Position numbers and translations under genes: made by a program. The notes under the pieces are model-generated. The model searched no databases. It saw nothing but the letters and a program-made list of their open reading frames with translations, and had not been told where the DNA came from. A stretch of 64,000 nt of DNA from Candidatus Saccharimonadota bacterium (GTDB lineage: Bacteria; Patescibacteriota; Saccharimonadia; Saccharimonadales; Saccharimonadaceae), in NCBI GenBank assembly GCA_017404935.1, contig JAFRBI010000007.1, positions 1 through 64,000 of the forward strand, read 5' to 3'. Positions 26,883-52,992 of this stretch are shown here, piece after piece. The number at the start of each line of letters is the position of its first letter. The first letter of the stretch is position 1.

Positions 26883-29708
26883 ATGTGGAGGTACCATAAG
26901 CTAAAAATGGGCTGTGGTAAGATAACCTTCGAGTTGTTGTTGATTTTCGTGTGCCAAATTTTCCTAACAACCATTTTCGATTCCAGTCCCGCCTATGCCA
27001 GTACCCCGACCACTATCACCATAGAGGTGGCAGGTGATATTAACGTAGATGTTGTGCCAAATCAGTTTAAATCTGGATCAACCACCTTCACCGTTACTAC
27101 TGATAGCCCTAATGGTTATAAGGTGCTCATGGAAACTGGCGGCACTTCTACTGATCTAATTCCAGAAAGTGGTGGCGAAACCACTATTCCTACAATCATC
27201 CTACCAACAGGGAAAAGTTTCATTTCGGCCTCCGAGATAACTAAAGCCCACGCCTACAGTATGGACAACACCAAATTTAGACCTATACCAGCCATCGGTA
27301 ATAGCGACACTATTGTTGAAGTAAACGAAGTAAATGGAACTGTTACCAACACTCACACCATTACTATGGGGGTCAAGGTAGAAAACGACGTTCCGCCAGG
27401 GAAATACACTAATAGCCTCATTCTCACTGCCATTGCTAATACCCCAGATATCTGTGACCCAAATCTTATCTGTTACAATAAAAATGGCAGCGAGGAGGGG
27501 GCTGAAGCTACAGAGCAATCAGTTACCAGTAACACTGATGCCACTCTGTCATCTCCTAACTTCTATCGAACCGGTTATGGTTTTGCCGGTTGGAACACCA
27601 GAAGAGATGGCACCGGTGACACCTATGGGCCAAACCAGACTATTCCTGTGGGAGACGTCTCGAATGAAGGTATAATGCTCTACGCTAAATGGTTAGAGTC
27701 TGAAGATACTCTTCAAAACTGGGATGGTTGTGACGTTATGGGCATCGGTGACACGATTGCCCTTACCGACTCTAGGGACGGGAATGTTTATACCGTAGCT
27801 AAATTGGCAGACCACGCCTGTTGGATGACGGAAAACTTACGTCTAGATTTCTCTAACCCAGATGTGACAATCACCGCAGCCAACACTAACAATCCTGCCT
27901 CAGACTTTATGGTCGCGGTGAACCAACACCCAAGCTCATCTTCCAACTTCTGTACAACCAACAACGCTAGCTGTGTCAACCGTATTCTGTTTAATGCTAA
28001 CGGGGTAAATCCAAACTCGGCAGATCTGTGGTATTCGTATGGCGTCTATTACAACTGGTATACGGCTACCGCTGGTAATGGAACCTATTCAACAAACAAC
28101 CCAAGAGTTAGAGCTGATGGGGATATTTGCCCGGCTGGGTGGTCACTACCAGATGGATATAGTATCAACGGCGATTATGCCACCCTCGATATAGCACTTG
28201 GTGGTAGGGGCAGTAACGAGACTTCTAACTTGATGTCAAACAGATGGCGCAGCTATCCAAACAACTTCCTCTTCAGTGGCCAGCAAAACGGAAATTCAAT
28301 CACCAATCGTGGCGAAACAGGGAACTACCATGGTATCAGTGCATCTTCTTCTAACAATTTAATCAATATGTGGTTGCAAGCAACCAAAGTCAGTACCAAC
28401 ACAAACGGGTCGTCTAAAATCCGTGGTCAGTCTGTCCGTTGTATGATGCAAAAATATTACACCGTACACTTTGATGCTAACACTACGGCTGAAGTAGATG
28501 GAATTATGTACGATCAAAGAACTGCCGTTGGGAATAGTATCAAAATAGATTCAAACAACTTTACGATTTCGCCACAAGGTGGTCACGTCTACAAGTTTAT
28601 CAATTGGAACACTGCTGCCGACGGTAGTGGCGATAGTTATGCAGACGGAGCAACCATCACGAACTTGGGTGCTACTGCTGGTCAAACTGTTACACTTTAT
28701 GCTCAATGGGAAGTTTTGTCGCTAGTGGACGTTACGGTAGTATTCCCGCAAGGCATTACAGAGATTAGACTCAGCAATAGCGACTATGATAGCTACTATA
28801 GTGTGACCGAAAGCGGCGACGTAGTCAACTTAGTAGGAACAAAACCGTACACTATCTCAGCCGTTCTGGACTCTAGCTACGACTTTGACGGTTGGACCAC
28901 CACTGCAGGGGGCACAATTGGCTCTCCTCTTATTAGCCCAACCACTTACACTGTAACCTCCGCCGCCACCCTAACTGCCGCGGCCAGCTATAGGACCACT
29001 ACGCTCTATCTCCAAAATCTCAGCTCAGCATCCTGTTCGAATATTCCAAGGACCGTGTTCGACAACCGTGACAACGAAGCTTACACCATCGCTCGTCTAG
29101 ATGATGGCAACTGTTGGATGCTAGACGATCTCAGACTTGGTTCTACCACCTTATTAGCTTCTATTACCGATGCCAATACCAACATGCCAGAAAATTCCAG
29201 TCCTCTTATCTTGACTCAGCCAACCCGTCTCTACGATTATGAAACTCCAGAGACAGATCTAAGCCGTGTTGGCCAAAGCGTCACTAACTACGGGTCTGGT
29301 AGCGGCAAGGCCGGCGTCTACTACAACTTCTGTGCCGCCTCCGCTGGTACGGTCTGTTCCGCCAGTAGCCCGCAAAATGCCATTTACGATATCTGTCCGG
29401 TCGGCTGGAGATTAGCGACCGGTGGTTCAAGTGGCGAGCTTCAGGCTCTCTACAGAACATACGGCAGCAACGTATCAAGATTTAATACTGCCTTCTCCAC
29501 CGCCCTCTCTGGGTGGTTCGATGCCAACCAAGGGAATAACGGTACATACAAGGAGTTCGATAGCGCGGTAGTTTACTGGTCGTCTACTGCCTCAAACAAC
29601 ATTAACAAGACCTACATCCTTAAATTGACCAGAAACAGTATCGTCCAAAATACTGGTTATCTAGAAAATAACGGATTCAGCGTCCGGTGTCTGTTGAAAT
29701 CAGAGTAA
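26883..29708 (+). CDS. Large secreted FISUMP/InlB-repeat protein
   Basis: The 941-residue protein has a signal peptide ending near AYAS (residue 39), an N-terminal beta domain (TFTVTTDSPNGYKVLMETGG), an InlB-type (Listeria-Bacteroides) repeat ending in LYAKW, a first FISUMP domain (HACWMTENLRLD, DICPAGWSLPDG, RCMMQKY), a second InlB-type repeat ending in LYAQW, and a second FISUMP domain (NCWMLDDLRLG, DICPVGWRL, VYWSSTAS, RCLLKSE). It is likely a cell-surface adhesin facing the host bacterium. There is no sortase motif or C-terminal anchor. AAGGGGGAAAG precedes the start. It is a paralogue of the DGR target but lacks the VR sequence. Confidence 0.85.
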   Translation: MWRYHKLKMGCGKITFELLLIFVCQIFLTTIFDSSPAYASTPTTITIEVAGDINVDVVPNQFKSGSTTFTVTTDSPNGYKVLMETGGTSTDLIPESGGETTIPTIILPTGKSFISASEITKAHAYSMDNTKFRPIPAIGNSDTIVEVNEVNGTVTNTHTITMGVKVENDVPPGKYTNSLILTAIANTPDICDPNLICYNKNGSEEGAEATEQSVTSNTDATLSSPNFYRTGYGFAGWNTRRDGTGDTYGPNQTIPVGDVSNEGIMLYAKWLESEDTLQNWDGCDVMGIGDTIALTDSRDGNVYTVAKLADHACWMTENLRLDFSNPDVTITAANTNNPASDFMVAVNQHPSSSSNFCTTNNASCVNRILFNANGVNPNSADLWYSYGVYYNWYTATAGNGTYSTNNPRVRADGDICPAGWSLPDGYSINGDYATLDIALGGRGSNETSNLMSNRWRSYPNNFLFSGQQNGNSITNRGETGNYHGISASSSNNLINMWLQATKVSTNTNGSSKIRGQSVRCMMQKYYTVHFDANTTAEVDGIMYDQRTAVGNSIKIDSNNFTISPQGGHVYKFINWNTAADGSGDSYADGATITNLGATAGQTVTLYAQWEVLSLVDVTVVFPQGITEIRLSNSDYDSYYSVTESGDVVNLVGTKPYTISAVLDSSYDFDGWTTTAGGTIGSPLISPTTYTVTSAATLTAAASYRTTTLYLQNLSSASCSNIPRTVFDNRDNEAYTIARLDDGNCWMLDDLRLGSTTLLASITDANTNMPENSSPLILTQPTRLYDYETPETDLSRVGQSVTNYGSGSGKAGVYYNFCAASAGTVCSASSPQNAIYDICPVGWRLATGGSSGELQALYRTYGSNVSRFNTAFSTALSGWFDANQGNNGTYKEFDSAVVYWSSTASNNINKTYILKLTRNSIVQNTGYLENNGFSVRCLLKSE

Positions 29709-46507: not shown

Positions 46508-46548
46508 GAGTAATAAAAATAATCCCCAAAGGGGATTTATTTTTGTTA

Positions 46549-46679
46549 CCCAGGGATAATTTACCTGATAGCGTATATTGACAAAAATACGCTATCAGGA
46601 GTATTGCGCATTTTTTATCGCCCAGGGGTAATTTACCTGATAGCGTATATTGACAAAAATACGCTATCAGGTGTATAAT
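46549..46679 (+). promoter_or_regulatory. Duplicated palindromic operator and promoter
   Basis: A sequence of about 54 bases at 46549 is repeated 72 bp later at 46621. Each copy contains perfect 13-base arms CCTGATAGCGTAT and ATACGCTATCAGG (46564-46576/46587-46599 and 46636-46648/46659-46671). In the second copy TTGACA (46650-46655) lies in the palindrome centre and TATAAT (46674-46679) follows after 18 bp. Confidence 0.8.
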
Positions 46680-46685
46680 AAGATT

Positions 46686-47654
46686 ATGAAAATCTATTTT
46701 TCGAATAATGATATGCTGATGAATTTCAACCATTTTTTGAGTCAAGTAGATTTCAAAGACAATAAGGAATTAGAAATAATAACTGCAAATAATTGGATAA
46801 GCGTCCACCCCGCAGCTTTGGTGCTCGCAGCCGCACTTGCAAAAAAAGTCGGGAAAAACCACACGATTATTGACAATTCCGCTGGAGAATCGGGGCTATA
46901 TTTAGATAGAATGGGTTTATATGATTATTCTAAAACTGAATCACCATATAAATATAACCAACACGATGAATCAGGCCGTTTTATACCGATTCGCCAAATT
47001 TTGACTCAAAGTGATCAAAGTAGGTTCGTAACCGATATCATTCCGTTACTCCATTTAGATCCAGAAAAATCTCAAATGATTAGATACGTTATCGGGGAAC
47101 TTGTTAGGAATGTGCTAGAACACTCTATGTCAAATGATGGGGCCTTTGTCGCGGCACAGTATAGACCAAAAACTAATGTATTAAGTTTTGGTGTATGCGA
47201 CACTGGAATCGGGATTAGAAAAAGTCTAGAGAAATTTCATTTTTCAGAAGATAATTTGTCAGCTATTAGGCTTGCACTCATGCCAGGTATAAGTGGTACA
47301 ACAGCAGGGTTGAATTTCACAGAGGATAATGGTGGCGCAGGGTTATTTATCGTAAAAAATTTATCCAAAATGACACGAAATTACTTTATCTTATACAGTG
47401 GGGATGCGGCGTATAAACTATTAAAATATGATAAGCGTATAAAAGGGCTTCCAAAAATAAAATCTGACCCGCTCGAGGATAAACATAGCGCATATTCAGA
47501 CCTGCCAAAGTTCGACGGAACACTTGTAGGCGTAGATATAGCACTAGACGATACGGAAACTTTCAACACGATAATGGAAGTAATTAAGGTTGGCTACAGT
47601 AAATCTATACGTGAAAGGAAAGAACGAAAATACAAGGAGATAAAATTCGTATGA
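46686..47654 (+). CDS. GHKL (histidine-kinase-like) ATPase
   Basis: The start at 46686 lies six bases behind TATAAT (leaderless). The 322-residue product has an N box (VIGELVRNVLEHS), G1 box (VCDTGIGIR) and G2-like GGAGLFIVKNL of the GHKL fold; there is no phosphoacceptor domain. The N-terminal 120 residues are of an unassigned alpha/beta type with a helix-rich end. It overlaps the STAS-like gene by four bases. The pair resembles accessory ATPase/DUF4325 pairs and also anti-sigma/anti-anti-sigma couples. Gene and operator look like a mobile, self-regulated cassette. Confidence 0.75.
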   Translation: MKIYFSNNDMLMNFNHFLSQVDFKDNKELEIITANNWISVHPAALVLAAALAKKVGKNHTIIDNSAGESGLYLDRMGLYDYSKTESPYKYNQHDESGRFIPIRQILTQSDQSRFVTDIIPLLHLDPEKSQMIRYVIGELVRNVLEHSMSNDGAFVAAQYRPKTNVLSFGVCDTGIGIRKSLEKFHFSEDNLSAIRLALMPGISGTTAGLNFTEDNGGAGLFIVKNLSKMTRNYFILYSGDAAYKLLKYDKRIKGLPKIKSDPLEDKHSAYSDLPKFDGTLVGVDIALDDTETFNTIMEVIKVGYSKSIRERKERKYKEIKFV

Positions 47655-47941
47655 AAAAAATAAAAATAAAAGAAATAGCGGGTGAATTTTGCGAAAATAA
47701 AGATATAGCTAAAAAAATACGTGAGGAATATATTCTGCCATCCTTGGCGGCTAATGAACAGGTAGAGCTAGATTTTGAGGGGGTCACTGGTGTCACTCAG
47801 TCTTTTATACATGCTGTTATTGCAGAGGCGATTAGGCAATTCCCAAATACGTTCTATGAATTGGTTATTTTTAAAAATTGCCCAGATTTAGTCAAAACGA
47901 TTATTGAAATTGTTTCAGAATATATGCAAGAAAGTGCATAA
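47651..47941 (+). CDS. STAS-like (DUF4325) protein
   Basis: The 96-residue product has the pattern of DUF4325: VELDFEGVTGVTQSFIHAVI in the centre, then LVIFKNCPDLVKTIIEIV. This is an anti-anti-sigma-like fold with a hydrophobic strand and a Ser/Thr in the VTQSF turn, a possible phosphosite. It is translationally coupled to the GHKL ATPase, the likely partner. Confidence 0.75.
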   Translation: MKKIKIKEIAGEFCENKDIAKKIREEYILPSLAANEQVELDFEGVTGVTQSFIHAVIAEAIRQFPNTFYELVIFKNCPDLVKTIIEIVSEYMQESA

Positions 47942-47980: not shown

Positions 47981-48237
47981 TTGACAGCCTCAAACTACTT
48001 ATGCTACAATAAAAGTGCAATAGTTTGATATTTTTACAATAAGGGTAGGATATTTTATATCGCAACGCGTATTTTGTCTAAAGCGTAAAAATGGCACCAG
48101 GATGGCGTCAGATGCGTTTTAGGCAGTTTACTTTGCGGTATCTACCTTGTAAAAGTGTCAGACTATTGCACCCATCGTGGTGCCATTTTTAGTTAGAGAG
48201 GCTAGATAGCACCAAATACAAAAATAAAGGAGACGAA
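47981..48237 (+). promoter_or_regulatory. Promoter and structured leader RNA of the DGR target
   Basis: TTGACA (47981-47986), 18 bp, TACAAT (48005-48010); transcription should begin near 48016. The leader is about 220 nt. Its first 25 bases (48015-48039) can pair with 48147-48171, the only differences being G-U type changes. A second pair, 48087-48099 with 48178-48190 (AAAAATGGCACCA and TGGTGCCATTTTT), interlocks with it (A-B-A'-B'). The second stem ends in T5 and could be a terminator or part of a pseudoknot. AAAGGAG precedes the ATG at 48238. Confidence 0.65.
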
Positions 48238-50274
48238 ATGTCCACTAGGGTCATACAAAAAATTATTCAATTTATTCATTTAGTGCTACACCGTGGTTTT
48301 GGAAGTTTTACTTCCAACCCGTATATATTTAAAATCAATAACATTGTGCCACGGTGTAGTGGCACCTTCATCAAAAGATGCAAGAATGTTAGAATTATCG
48401 GCATTACCGCTTCAACTGCTCTCGTTTTGCTCACCCTTGCCAGTGTTTTCCCGATTACCAAGACTGCCGATGATGCCGAAGGCACAGCTGGCGTAGTAGA
48501 AGTCCCAACCCTTACTATGACTACCGGCCAAGAAAACGCCAGTGTAGATGTTACTCCAACATCAGCTACTGGTACCTTTGCCACAAGTGCCACGGCAGAT
48601 GAAGCCAAATTCACTGTTCAAACTGATAATTACACCGGGTATACCCTAACCATCAAAGCAAACGACAACGCTGGCCAACTTACTAATAGTACTACCGGCG
48701 ATACTTTAGACTCTATTGCTGCTGCTACAGACCAGAGCACCTTCACTACCGGCTCAGCAGCCACTTATAATAATAAATGGGGTTACAAGCCAAGCAAATT
48801 TAATTCTACTGTCAACACTAACTACCTTCCAGCCCCTACTACTACCGCTAGTGTCCTAGATAAAACCACCATTGCCAACCCTACCGCCAACACTTATACC
48901 ATCGCTCTTGGCGCCCGCGTAGACTACACCAAGCCAGTAGGCACCTATAGTAGCACTTACACCCTTACTGCCGTAGCCAACCCAGTAGCCTACCATATCA
49001 GCTACTACGACGGCGTGAACACTGCCGTAATCGGCAACCAACAGAGCGAAACATCTACTGCCAGTATCACTGTTAATCCTACCTATACGTCCGGCTCTGC
49101 TCCAACTAGGAGCACCTACACCTTTAAGAGCTGGTGTCTTGGCACAGTCAATAGCACTACCACTTACAATACCAGCACCAAGACTTACAGCAACCAAGCC
49201 ACCGTTTGTACCGGTACAGAATATGCCACTGGTGCTACAATGCTCTTAGACCCAACTGTAGATAATACTAATATCAAGCTCTACGCTGTTTGGACACCTA
49301 CTACCTTTGACCAAGCTTACGCTGCCGCCAGCAAAACCAAAAATGCCACCACCAACCATTACCAGATGCAAGACATCAATAGTACTATTTGTAGCGCCGT
49401 TACAGTCAACCAATACGGCACCTTAACGGACAGCCGTGACAACCAAAACTATGTCGTAGGCAAGCTAGAAGATGGCCATTGCTGGCTAGCAGACAACCTC
49501 AACTTCGATGCCTACACCAACAGAAACAGCATCACCACCGCTAATACCAATGTAGACGCTACCTCCCTTACTAGCTTTAAGAGCGGCAACCGCTCCGCCG
49601 GCGTAAGATACGCCACTGCCGGCATCGCCAGCAGTTGGACCACTACTAACAGCTACACCCAGGCTATGATTAAGCGTGATGGCTCCTGTGACAGTAGCAA
49701 AAACTCCGCTTGGCAATGCCTCAGCCCATACCAAGGCGCTAGTTACACTTATAATACCGTCATAGACAAATACGGCTCAGACCCAGGGCAAAACGGCTCT
49801 GGTACCGCTACCACCACCTACAACATCGGCCCAGGTAGCTACAAGATTGGCACCTACTACAACTATTGTGCTGCTTCTGCCGGCAACTACTGCTATGATA
49901 GTAGTGGTACTAATGTCCCACCAACCACCAGCAAAGCAGACTACGATATCTGCCCAAAGGGCTGGCGAATTCCATCGGGCGGCGCTAGCGGTGAATATCA
50001 AGCCCTAGACAACGCCCTAAAGGCCAAATACCCAAGCACCTACCGCACTAGTACTAGCCCATATAGTATGCAGTCGATGCTCTCTACGCCGGTCTCCGGG
50101 AACTACTACAGCGGTACCGCTTGGAGGCAGGGTGTCAGCGGCTACTTCTGGTCATCTAATTACTATAGCGCGACGGGTGTGTACAGCATGGCCGTCTCTG
50201 GTACAGGGGTTTACCCCCAGAATAACCACTATCGCTACAACGGCCGCTCAGTACGCTGTATTGCCCAGTATTAG
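48238..50274 (+). CDS. DGR target: variable FISUMP-domain surface protein
   Basis: The 678-residue protein has a cytoplasmic N-terminus and one membrane helix (about 54-76), a beta-rich domain (TVQTDNYTGYTLTIKANDN), an InlB-like repeat ending in LYAVW, and a C-terminal FISUMP domain (HCWLADNLNFD, YNYCAASAGNYC, DICPKGWRIPSGG, FWSSNYYSA, RSVRCIAQY). The last 62 codons are the variable repeat. Compared with the template, 13 residues differ, and every one comes from template Asn or Met codons rich in A (N to Y, S, G, A, H, R; M to V). The variable face is thus the C-terminal ligand site of a lectin-like fold. Likely a surface binder whose specificity is rewritten. Confidence 0.93.
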   Translation: MSTRVIQKIIQFIHLVLHRGFGSFTSNPYIFKINNIVPRCSGTFIKRCKNVRIIGITASTALVLLTLASVFPITKTADDAEGTAGVVEVPTLTMTTGQENASVDVTPTSATGTFATSATADEAKFTVQTDNYTGYTLTIKANDNAGQLTNSTTGDTLDSIAAATDQSTFTTGSAATYNNKWGYKPSKFNSTVNTNYLPAPTTTASVLDKTTIANPTANTYTIALGARVDYTKPVGTYSSTYTLTAVANPVAYHISYYDGVNTAVIGNQQSETSTASITVNPTYTSGSAPTRSTYTFKSWCLGTVNSTTTYNTSTKTYSNQATVCTGTEYATGATMLLDPTVDNTNIKLYAVWTPTTFDQAYAAASKTKNATTNHYQMQDINSTICSAVTVNQYGTLTDSRDNQNYVVGKLEDGHCWLADNLNFDAYTNRNSITTANTNVDATSLTSFKSGNRSAGVRYATAGIASSWTTTNSYTQAMIKRDGSCDSSKNSAWQCLSPYQGASYTYNTVIDKYGSDPGQNGSGTATTTYNIGPGSYKIGTYYNYCAASAGNYCYDSSGTNVPPTTSKADYDICPKGWRIPSGGASGEYQALDNALKAKYPSTYRTSTSPYSMQSMLSTPVSGNYYSGTAWRQGVSGYFWSSNYYSATGVYSMAVSGTGVYPQNNHYRYNGRSVRCIAQY

Positions 50275-50291
50275 AGAGTTTTTCTCTCACG
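50081..50291 (+). repeat. DGR variable repeat (VR)
   Basis: It covers the last 62 codons of the target and 17 bases beyond the stop. Over the aligned region there are 18 substitutions against the TR, all at adenines of the TR (8 A-to-G, 6 A-to-T, 4 A-to-C), giving 13 amino-acid changes and one silent change. The last 53 bases are identical to the TR and should contain the initiation of mutagenic homology. A GAGAG-T5-CTCTC hairpin lies just after the stop codon, as is usual downstream of VRs. Confidence 0.95.
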
Positions 50292-50342
50292 TCCTCTTCG
50301 GAATAGACTAAGGCAAGCCCAGCTTGCCGGGAAAGAACCACC

Positions 50343-51326
50343 ATGACAGAAAAGAATAAAAATAAGAATTCAAAGAAAACTAAGGAAGATCCACCACTTT
50401 TGGCAGCTCTCGACGCCATGGCGGAGAGAGATGCCAAAAGCCCAGGGGTAAAAAATGTTCCTAATGAAATGATGGAAATTGTGGCGCACGCCGTCCCAGT
50501 GAGAAAAAAGCTAAAAAAGGTATTTACAGATGAAGAAATCGCCAAATTTTTGGATGAAAAAATTAGTCAAGAAGCCCGTGCTAAGTTTAAAGATGAGGTC
50601 AAGCGTATCAAGCGGAGGGTGTTAGATCTGGAGGCCACCAACCGCACCCAGCTAATTTTCTACAAAAGTTCCGAAAACGGGGATTTTTATAAGGCCCTCG
50701 ATACTTCTGCACTTTACTATGCTCACCGTTTGGCTCAGTTGATGGGTAGAAAATGTAATGTCATGATAGACAAGGACAGATTCTTAAAAGCCGACTTTGT
50801 GGCCAGTATCTCTGGTGGTATCGACAAGTTTACTAAACAATACAAAGAGTTAGAAGGTTTAGAACCAGAGGTTACTCTAGACGGAATTTACATCTTTCCC
50901 TTAAAAGAGCCGATTACTGACGAAGAGTATCAAATGCTTCGTCAAACTGAAAAGACTAGACAGGAGCGAGTACATAACATTTTAAAACCCAAAAATATGT
51001 CGCCAGCGGTTTATCAGCAGATTTTAATGATTATTCGCCAACTCGCACCAAAATCCGAGAAGTTAAAGGACGAATCTATTAACTACCGAATATTTGGTAC
51101 TGAAATGCTAATGAATTTGCGCAACATTATGGCGATTTATTCAGATTATTCTAATGGAACCTATGACACTTCAGAAGCTGGCAGGATGATTCTTGCCGAA
51201 ACTGGCCGCATTAAAGCCACCCTCGTGATTCTTGGCGAAACCAGAAAATGGGGTGCGGTACCACTAGCTTCCGCCGGTAATAATATTGAGATTTTAGAAA
51301 AGGTTATTAATAAAGATCTATGCTAG
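50343..51326 (+). CDS. DGR accessory protein, apparent MutS-like/Avd-like fusion
   Basis: The 327-residue protein is basic. Residues about 97-190 (TQLIFYKSSENGDFYKALDT and onward) resemble MutS domain I (the F-x-x-x-G-D-F-Y mismatch-binding start). The C-terminal 110 residues (from SPAVYQQILMIIRQLAP) form four amphipathic helices like Avd, the barrel protein that binds RT and template RNA. MutS-like proteins and Avd are both known DGR accessory types. The gene sits between VR and RT and overlaps the RT gene by seven bases, so the two should be made together. A GGCAAGC/GCTTGCC hairpin lies before it. Confidence 0.65.
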   Translation: MTEKNKNKNSKKTKEDPPLLAALDAMAERDAKSPGVKNVPNEMMEIVAHAVPVRKKLKKVFTDEEIAKFLDEKISQEARAKFKDEVKRIKRRVLDLEATNRTQLIFYKSSENGDFYKALDTSALYYAHRLAQLMGRKCNVMIDKDRFLKADFVASISGGIDKFTKQYKELEGLEPEVTLDGIYIFPLKEPITDEEYQMLRQTEKTRQERVHNILKPKNMSPAVYQQILMIIRQLAPKSEKLKDESINYRIFGTEMLMNLRNIMAIYSDYSNGTYDTSEAGRMILAETGRIKATLVILGETRKWGAVPLASAGNNIEILEKVINKDLC

Positions 51327-52483
51327 ATTTTTTTGGCCTGATTGAAAAAGAGTCGAGTTTAGAGATGAGAGAGTGGTTAAAAGATCCCAAGAATATGTTG
51401 CTTGCTGAGCTTTTTATTGCCGAAAGGGAGGCTAGAAAAGGTGGCAAACGCAAAACCGAAGATTGCCATAAGTTTGAGGCCAACCTAATGGAAAATTTAA
51501 TAAGGTTGCGAGATGATCTGTGGAATTATTCCTATCTGCCCAGTCGCGGGGCTGTACATGTAGTCAAAGTACCAGTGGTGCGCGAGATTTTTGCTGCACC
51601 ATTTAGAGATAGAATTATTCACCACTGGATTGTTTCGCAACTATCGCCGTGGTGGGAAAAACGCTTATCTCCTAGGTCTTGTAGCTGCCGCGTGGGGATG
51701 GGCACTTCCTATGGCATTCAACTTTTAAAAGATGAGATTCGTAAGGTTTCTAGGAACTACACTAGAGAAACCGTGATTTTAAAGTTTGATATCAAGGGAT
51801 ATTTTATGCATATTCGGCGAGACATCTTATTTAAACGCGTAAAGTGGGGACTAGACCGGCAATTTGCTGGGCATCTAGATGACAAACGCTATAAGTTGCT
51901 TCGCCACGCTATTAAAGCAGTTATTTTCGATGAACCAACCAAAAATGTAATTTTGCAGGGCGAATATGAAGATTGGCGGAAAGTCCCTCTAGACAAGAGC
52001 CTGTTTGCCGCTGGGCCCTTATGCGGTATTGTGATTGGCAATCTCACTTCGCAATTTTTTTCAAACATTTACTTGGATGCCCTAGATAGGTTTATTGTTT
52101 TTGATTTGGGTTACAAACATTATGTGCGTTATGTGGATGATTTTTGTATTGTGGTCCCAAAATCCGAAAAATCTCAAGTTTTGGCCGATGCTACCAGAAT
52201 AGAAACGCTTCTAAACGGTTTAGGGCTGTTTTTGAATCCGTACAAAACCAAGGCCTTAGAAAGCTGGCAAGGCGTGCCATTTTTGGGCTATGTGGTGCGG
52301 AATAATGTGGTAATGCCAGGAAAAAGAATTGTGAAGAACTTTCACAATGCCGCCCGCAAAGTGGAAATGGGAGTAAAAGATACTGATGTCTTAGTGTCTT
52401 ATCTCGGTATGATGAAGCATTATAATGCTGGCAAAGTATGTATCGATGTATTTAATAGAGTAGGATGGGATTACTCATTTTAA
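51320..52483 (+). CDS. DGR reverse transcriptase
   Basis: The 387-residue protein has RT motifs in order: LPSRGAVHVVKVPVVREIFAAP region, RDRIIHHWI, the catalytic Asp in ILKFDIKGYFMHI, the DGR-type GNLTSQFFSNIYL (SQ in place of the QG of retroviral and group II RTs), the metal site YVRYVDDF and FLGYVVRNN. It copies TR RNA into cDNA with A misreading and feeds it into VR. It ends directly before a two-way terminator-like hairpin. Confidence 0.95.
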   Translation: MLDFFGLIEKESSLEMREWLKDPKNMLLAELFIAEREARKGGKRKTEDCHKFEANLMENLIRLRDDLWNYSYLPSRGAVHVVKVPVVREIFAAPFRDRIIHHWIVSQLSPWWEKRLSPRSCSCRVGMGTSYGIQLLKDEIRKVSRNYTRETVILKFDIKGYFMHIRRDILFKRVKWGLDRQFAGHLDDKRYKLLRHAIKAVIFDEPTKNVILQGEYEDWRKVPLDKSLFAAGPLCGIVIGNLTSQFFSNIYLDALDRFIVFDLGYKHYVRYVDDFCIVVPKSEKSQVLADATRIETLLNGLGLFLNPYKTKALESWQGVPFLGYVVRNNVVMPGKRIVKNFHNAARKVEMGVKDTDVLVSYLGMMKHYNAGKVCIDVFNRVGWDYSF

Positions 52484-52490
52484 TTTTTGG

Positions 52491-52514
52491 GGCCTATGTC
52501 TCCGCAAATAGGCC
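52491..52514. terminator. Two-way hairpin between RT gene and TR
   Basis: GGCCTAT and ATAGGCC flank a 10-base loop. It is followed by GTTTTC on the plus strand and CCCCAAAAATT-type sequence on the minus strand, so it can end both the RT mRNA and the TR RNA. Confidence 0.55.
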
Positions 52515-52546
52515 GTTTTCGAAGAAACCATCACTTTTTGAAAGGG

Positions 52547-52757
52547 CGTGAGAGAAAAACTCTCTAATACTGGGCAATACAGCGTACTGAGTTGCCGTTG
52601 TTGCGATTGTTGTTATTCTGGGGGTTAACCCCTGTACCATTGACGTTCATGTTGTACATATTCGTCGCGCTATAGTAATTAGATGACCAGAAGTTGCCGT
52701 TGACACCCTGCCTCCAAGCGGTACCGCTGTTGTAGTTCCCGGAGACTGGCGTAGAGA
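52547..52757 (-). repeat. DGR template repeat (TR)
   Basis: Read on the minus strand it matches VR over 211 bp. In it the variable codons are AAC, AAT or ATG, which when mutated at A give many residues but no stop codon. It is rich in adjacent Asn codons (PQNNNNRNNGNS). A 96-residue frame through it (52564-52854) is a by-product. Confidence 0.95.
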
Positions 52758-52992
52758 TTGAGTGGCGGCAACCTCCGCAAGATACAACAATCGTAGACGT
52801 TTTTACAGGTGTGGTTTGTTTGCACGCTTTGCTTTCATGCGGCTCTTTTGGCACCTTGGCGCCAAAAGATTATCATACTCTACCTTTCGGCAAAGTACAC
52901 ACCTTGTCCTCCCTTGTCAAAGTGCGGGACCAATAAGATAAAACCGTAATTTACAGTCTCACTAGTCCGAGGTTCTCCGTGATTTTATTATA
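52758..52992 (-). ncRNA. Leader and promoter of the DGR template RNA
   Basis: A minus-strand TATAAT at 52987-52992 would start an RNA near 52979 that runs through about 220 nt of leader into TR and stops near 52491. The leader has a strong hairpin around 52846-52871 (CTTTTGGC(G)CC paired with GGTGCCAAAAG). DGR template RNAs need flanking structure to prime reverse transcription, so this is the likely place. The -35 region (AGAGGG) is weak. Confidence 0.6.

Follow-up and report, generated by a model that had tools for sequence, protein, structure and literature searches.

A diversity-generating retroelement with an antisense template at a surface-protein gene of a Saccharibacterium

Organisation of the cassette and its proteins

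The window analysed here is a 64,000-nucleotide (nt) stretch of contig JAFRBI010000007.1, taken from the 740,059-base genome of a Saccharibacterium. Relatives of this organism that carry a name are Candidatus Saccharibacteria, and gut samples are the source of several. The window contains a cassette with the organisation of a diversity-generating retroelement (DGR), in which a target gene (48238-50274, 678 residues), an accessory gene (50343-51326, 327 residues) and a reverse transcriptase (RT) gene (51320-52483, 387 residues) follow one another on the plus strand. The accessory open reading frame (ORF) lies between target and RT and shares 7 nt with the RT start, and all ORFs of the cassette are intact. 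A template repeat (TR, 52543-52757) is read on the minus strand, antisense to the RT, lying 59 nt past the RT stop codon. The variable repeat (VR, 50081-50295, plus strand) lies at the 3' end of the target gene. The sequence hallmarks of a DGR are all present: target, accessory gene, RT, TR, VR and a hairpin found only beside the VR. The original prediction had proposed a complete DGR in the Patescibacteria from RT motifs, a VR, a TR and an accessory gene in between; every part, the adenine pattern and the host group were recovered, and the antisense position of the TR is a point that it had not made.

The TR and VR form an inverted pair of 215 nt that are 91% alike; the TR holds 61 adenines and 154 other bases. 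Of their 19 differences, 18 are located at TR adenines (8 A>G, 6 A>T and 4 A>C), and the last is a C>T at the extreme 3' edge. All 18 core differences therefore fall on template adenines, for which the chance probability is 2.6e-11. The TR is rich in asparagine (AAY) codons, and a change of adenine in its frame never produces a stop codon. Comparison of the target with the TR gives 14 differing codons and 13 amino-acid changes at residues 616-678, as had been predicted for the last 60 or so residues. No second VR for this TR was found in the genome, where its only close copy is its own VR. The locus is a real, complete and, as judged from its sequence, probably functional DGR.

The RT carries the motifs of a DGR-type enzyme, IGNLTSQ (the SQ of motif 4) and YVDD (residues 271-274), and matches the PHROG RT profile at 3.7e-69. 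Among solved structures the BPP-1 DGR RT (8ub7) is closest, at 76 bits, with a group II maturase at 31 bits. Dozens of relatives have an intact RT gene, contrary to the original prediction's own refuting scenario of an enzyme broken in all of them. A viral origin of the cassette was considered and dropped after a close search of viral contigs returned no relative of the RT.

The target ORF matches the FISUMP model TIGR02145 at 1.2e-11 (45.7 bits, above the curated cut-off of 41.65), and the Pfam FISUMP model scores below its own cut-off. The N-terminus is hydrophobic, with a 19-residue mean of 2.17. A FISUMP protein with a membrane anchor had been proposed; the family match and the hydrophobic segment are found, and the retention of that segment as an anchor was the prediction's own reading. 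The C-terminal domain (residues 359-678; 49312-50271, plus strand) was modelled with a predicted local distance difference test score (pLDDT) of 73.8. Its closest solved fold is the C-terminal domain of Legionella Lcl (8q4e; Z 7.0, root-mean-square deviation (rmsd) 2.6 over 106), yet the sequence identity is 14% and the Z only 7.0; below it the matches are nearly all C-type lectins. The Z values are modest, and the argument lies in the consistency of the match list. Because the matches are nearly all C-type lectins, the FISUMP domain models as a C-type-lectin-fold target and is predicted to be no exception to the classical fold, against which the original prediction had set it. The VR at the end of this gene would accordingly encode part of a lectin-type fold, and the model places 12 of the 13 changed residues in predicted strands, several at alternate positions. 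The genome holds about a dozen FISUMP paralogues of the target. A further one lies in the window at 27033-29696, as a 951-residue open frame with two FISUMP-like stretches.

For the accessory protein, family profile searches gave no match at a meaningful score, and the accessory alignment, searched against PDB sequences, yielded no convincing relative. Its model (pLDDT 89.4) contains a C-terminal domain (residues ~217-327) that aligns with Avd of BPP-1 (4dwl, Z 14.2, rmsd 1.7 over 102; 8ub7, a DGR ribonucleoprotein, Z 14.3). The same domain aligns with two members of the S23/IVP family, 2gsc and 2rld, described as Avd relatives (PMC10053308). Helical bundles may reach high scores by chance; here Avd chains together with 2gsc and 2rld top the list. 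Residues ~100-186 form a separate alpha/beta domain, and the residues that are invariant in 49 aligned accessory proteins (K90, E97, N100, S122 and D143) lie inside it or just before it. Visually, this domain resembles MutS domain I. The hhalign comparison gives E 0.005 with a probability of only 7% over 69 columns, and Pfam MutS_I matches 1 of the 49 members at a weak E of 0.04. Since the MSL accessory proteins, assigned to Pfam MutS_I, are already a known DGR type (PMC10053308), a MutS-I reading of the N-terminal domain is plausible, and the profile comparison is suggestive only of such a relationship. In contrast to the MSL proteins, the domain is joined here to an Avd fold and its profile link is non-significant by probability. 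Seven accessory homologues match helix-turn-helix families, and in each of the 57 loci read an ORF occupies the accessory position before the RT. The product of the predicted accessory gene, whose place between target and RT stands, is by its model an Avd fold with an extra N-terminal domain. A search of 30 related genomes found no MutS domain I; the lack of MutS could help DGR changes to persist.

Related loci, cis elements and selection

The genome holds two further complete DGRs (C9 and C8; L101 and L102), each with its own template and with RTs that are only 42-43% identical to that of the window. A scripted scan of fetched loci kept TR/VR pairs in which at least 75% of the differences are at adenines. 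In the resulting 46 loci, which comprise the window, the two others in the genome and relatives, template adenines differ at 995 of 2461 positions and other bases at 31 of 5161 (odds ratio 112), totals that describe the set and are no test, given this selection. What serves as an independent test is the window, together with the recovery of pairs at most RT loci: most of those read gave an adenine-biased pair, and 8 gave none. The template strand is opposite to the RT in 44 of the 46 loci, nearly always 3' of it, and the VR is on the RT strand in 35 and on the template strand in 9. Inverted cassettes are known and uncommon (PMC6642488). The repeat overlaps the RT stop codon in a few loci, and therefore the RNA 3' of the template is antisense RT sequence there. 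The DGR is thus a known kind of system whose layout is unusual and lineage-wide. A remote second VR-like copy of the C9 template was also observed at L160:4080-4265 (C8:52579-52764), with 28 of 34 differences at template adenines; the ORF around it looks broken.

The hairpin GGCAAGC-CCA-GCTTGCC (50312-50328, plus strand) starts 16 nt past the VR, has a 7-bp stem and a 3-nt CCA loop, and is absent on the TR side. The nearest relative has an identical stem with another loop. Across the 46 loci, a hairpin of this kind is seen after 39% of VRs, 13% of TRs and 4% of shuffled sequences, in agreement with BPP-1 work on a hairpin or cruciform downstream of the VR (PMC3240598), although the loop is not GRNA. 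A 5-bp hairpin in the VR tail (GAGAG-TTTTT-CTCTC) was dropped as the cruciform candidate in favour of the VR-only one. Structure upstream of the TR is modest (z ~ -1.3). Two other candidates were rejected: an RNA structure antisense to the last part of the RT gene, as the 3' spacer of the TR RNA, has a mean z of ~ -0.9 that is equal on both strands, and a TR 5' motif picked by eye is weakly conserved (40% versus 22% of shuffles).

Asparagine codons recur at about 16 common columns in at least 85% of the 42 in-frame templates. At the 812 variable Asn codons, the variants include Tyr 246 times, Ser 98 times, Gly 79 times and Cys never, against an expectation of ~70 Cys under independent mutation of the two bases. 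Changes from TAC codons to Cys occur twice, so the residue is possible, yet it is unseen at the variable Asn codons. Outside AAY codons, change is commoner at silent than at non-silent adenines in both contexts: lone adenines are changed at 10 of 67 silent and 30 of 480 non-silent sites (P 0.02), and adenines beside another adenine at 11 of 17 silent and 14 of 86 non-silent sites (P 1e-4). This comparison is stratified by sequence context and replaces an earlier one that mixed contexts; its P values are rough, as the loci are related and the sequences non-independent. The excess of Tyr and Ser could stem from a bias of the RT itself (PMC12875486), which leaves only the Cys and silent-site results as evidence for selection. 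These two suggest that natural VR variants are filtered for function. The parts, the adenine-specific pattern, its repetition in 46 loci and this apparent protein selection can all be read from the sequences.

The leader RNA upstream of the target gene

A sigma-70-type promoter (TTGACA-18-TACAAT, 47981-48010, plus strand), recognised by consensus match only at 11 of 12 bases, lies just before a long hairpin at the presumed start of the operon transcript (48015-48171, plus strand). The fold of 48005-48237 has an energy of -87.8 kcal/mol (z -9.5). An inverted repeat permits a second, competing pairing (48086-48191, plus strand) between the apical segment 48086-48105 and the tail 48172-48191 (GGTGCCATTTTTA). 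The apex motif AATGGCACC, complementary to the tail, is present in 22 of 30 copies of the leader and in 0.3% of shuffles. The arrangement also precedes a paralogue on contig C5 and is found in many relatives, with the promoter placed alike in many of these copies. A strict tail pattern occurs in 24 genomes, all of this genus, with up to 19 copies per genome, and its reversed control gives 0.

The arms of the hairpin covary. In 37 distinct copies they pair at a mean of 16.0 of 20 positions beyond the anchor, a figure that drops to 9.1 when an arm is swapped for that of a different copy. In a set of 27 copies the pairing covers 90% of positions, versus 34-44% when slid, with arms only 44% alike; that set was chosen for at least 13 pairs, and the 37-copy comparison is the fairer control. 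Rfam 15 gave no match to the leader at gathering thresholds, nor at E values up to 1.

Within 160 nt of a leader copy, 27 of 29 ORFs encode a hydrophobic N-terminal segment. The strict pattern was not obtained from the other DGR loci read, and the leader therefore belongs to the surface-gene family and not to DGRs. The two pairings would be mutually exclusive, with the tail acting as a terminator. Somewhat short of an even chance, in our estimate, is the proposal that the DGR operon belongs to a surface-protein regulon under this leader RNA, a hairpin of ~110-200 nt with arms conserved only as base pairs that competes with the terminator-like tail GGTGCCATTTTT. Refolding of the RNA could then switch expression, and hence diversification, in step with the non-variable paralogues.

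A second inverted repeat lies inside the start of the target coding sequence at 48286-48361 (CTACACCGTGG / CCACGGTGTAG), and a comparable repeat, altered in its letters, is present in the C5 paralogue. Just upstream of the operon, a HATPase-like gene overlaps a STAS-like DUF4325 gene (46650-47941), and two 65-nt tandem copies, 92% alike and each with a strong inverted repeat, occupy 46540-46676.

Mechanism, alternatives and implications

The cassette is very probably a chromosomal Saccharibacterium DGR that rewrites the tip of a surface protein. On the BPP-1 model, from which the copying of an RNA template, retrohoming and the function of the accessory protein are carried over, a minus-strand TR RNA would be copied by the RT with the Avd-type accessory protein, and random bases would be placed opposite adenines. 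The cDNA would then take the place of the 3'-terminal VR of the target gene, and about 18 Asn codons in the C-type-lectin-fold domain of a secreted or anchored protein may in this way be rewritten.

Several observations weigh against this account. Best promoter scores for the TR RNA are no higher than those of shuffles, and no strong conserved RNA structure was found beside the TR. Foldseek E-values are weak for both the accessory and the target model. The expected Cys count depends on the independence assumption, and the possible RT bias noted above applies to the Tyr and Ser counts. Strain-level variation, which the original prediction had looked to in the VR, could be read from one near-clonal pair: the contigs L087 and L088, each from a different goat-gut sample, show 7 differences in 3615 bases and none in the VR, which is one point against very fast VR turnover. 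L087 (JAFQGP010000146.1) is filed under a Clostridia metagenome-assembled genome, is 99.8% identical to the Saccharibacteria contig L088 and is probably mis-binned.

The invariant VR of this pair and the failure to identify a TR promoter would suit a decayed DGR, in which the parts are kept, retrohoming has ended and the VR is a fixed relic. We consider this improbable, as every ORF is intact and the TR and VR have a single non-adenine difference, at the edge, with a similar picture in most of the 46 loci; because only that one difference exists, the VR appears to have been rewritten recently relative to background substitution. Far less probable still is an ordinary duplication or paralogue fragment that happens to be inverted and serves as no template. 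A genome with about a dozen FISUMP paralogues might supply such a fragment, but the adenine pattern already contradicts this reading, as do the stop-proof Asn codons, the neighbouring RT and Avd-fold genes and the fact that the TR has no close genomic copy besides its VR. The use of the variation is a separate matter from the DGR itself. Host binding is the likeliest, with a ligand on host cells as our guess. Evasion, by variation of a phage receptor or an exposed antigen, is less likely, though it deserves real weight. Against it stand the position of the variable codons in a lectin-type fold and their richness in Tyr, Gly and Ser with no Cys, features that suit ligand binding without being decisive.

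The DGR of the window shares with that of BPP-1 (Mtd / Avd / bRT) the RT, the Avd fold, adenine-specific TR-to-VR change, a C-type-lectin-fold target, AAY codons and a hairpin 3' of the VR. It differs in being chromosomal with a surface protein as target, where BPP-1 has a tail protein, in the antisense TR 3' of the RT, in the extra N-terminal domain of the accessory protein and in its CCA loop. It also resembles the Patescibacteria DGRs of clade 2 (Roux et al., 2021; PMC8144416) in host group and in being cell-encoded. Targets in that group usually have no recognisable transmembrane or other conserved domain (PMC8144416), whereas the present one has a recognisable FISUMP domain and an N-terminal hydrophobic segment.

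The 42 in-frame natural templates and their variants amount to a sizeable resource on which changes selection retains. The lineage-wide antisense TR and the Avd fold joined to an extra domain indicate that DGR layout can drift far with the adenine pattern intact. Characterised Saccharibacteria live on other bacteria. The 0.74-Mb genome carries three hypermutation cassettes, all at the predicted lectin-fold tips of one paralogous surface-protein family, and these point, down to exact residues, to where host recognition may vary.
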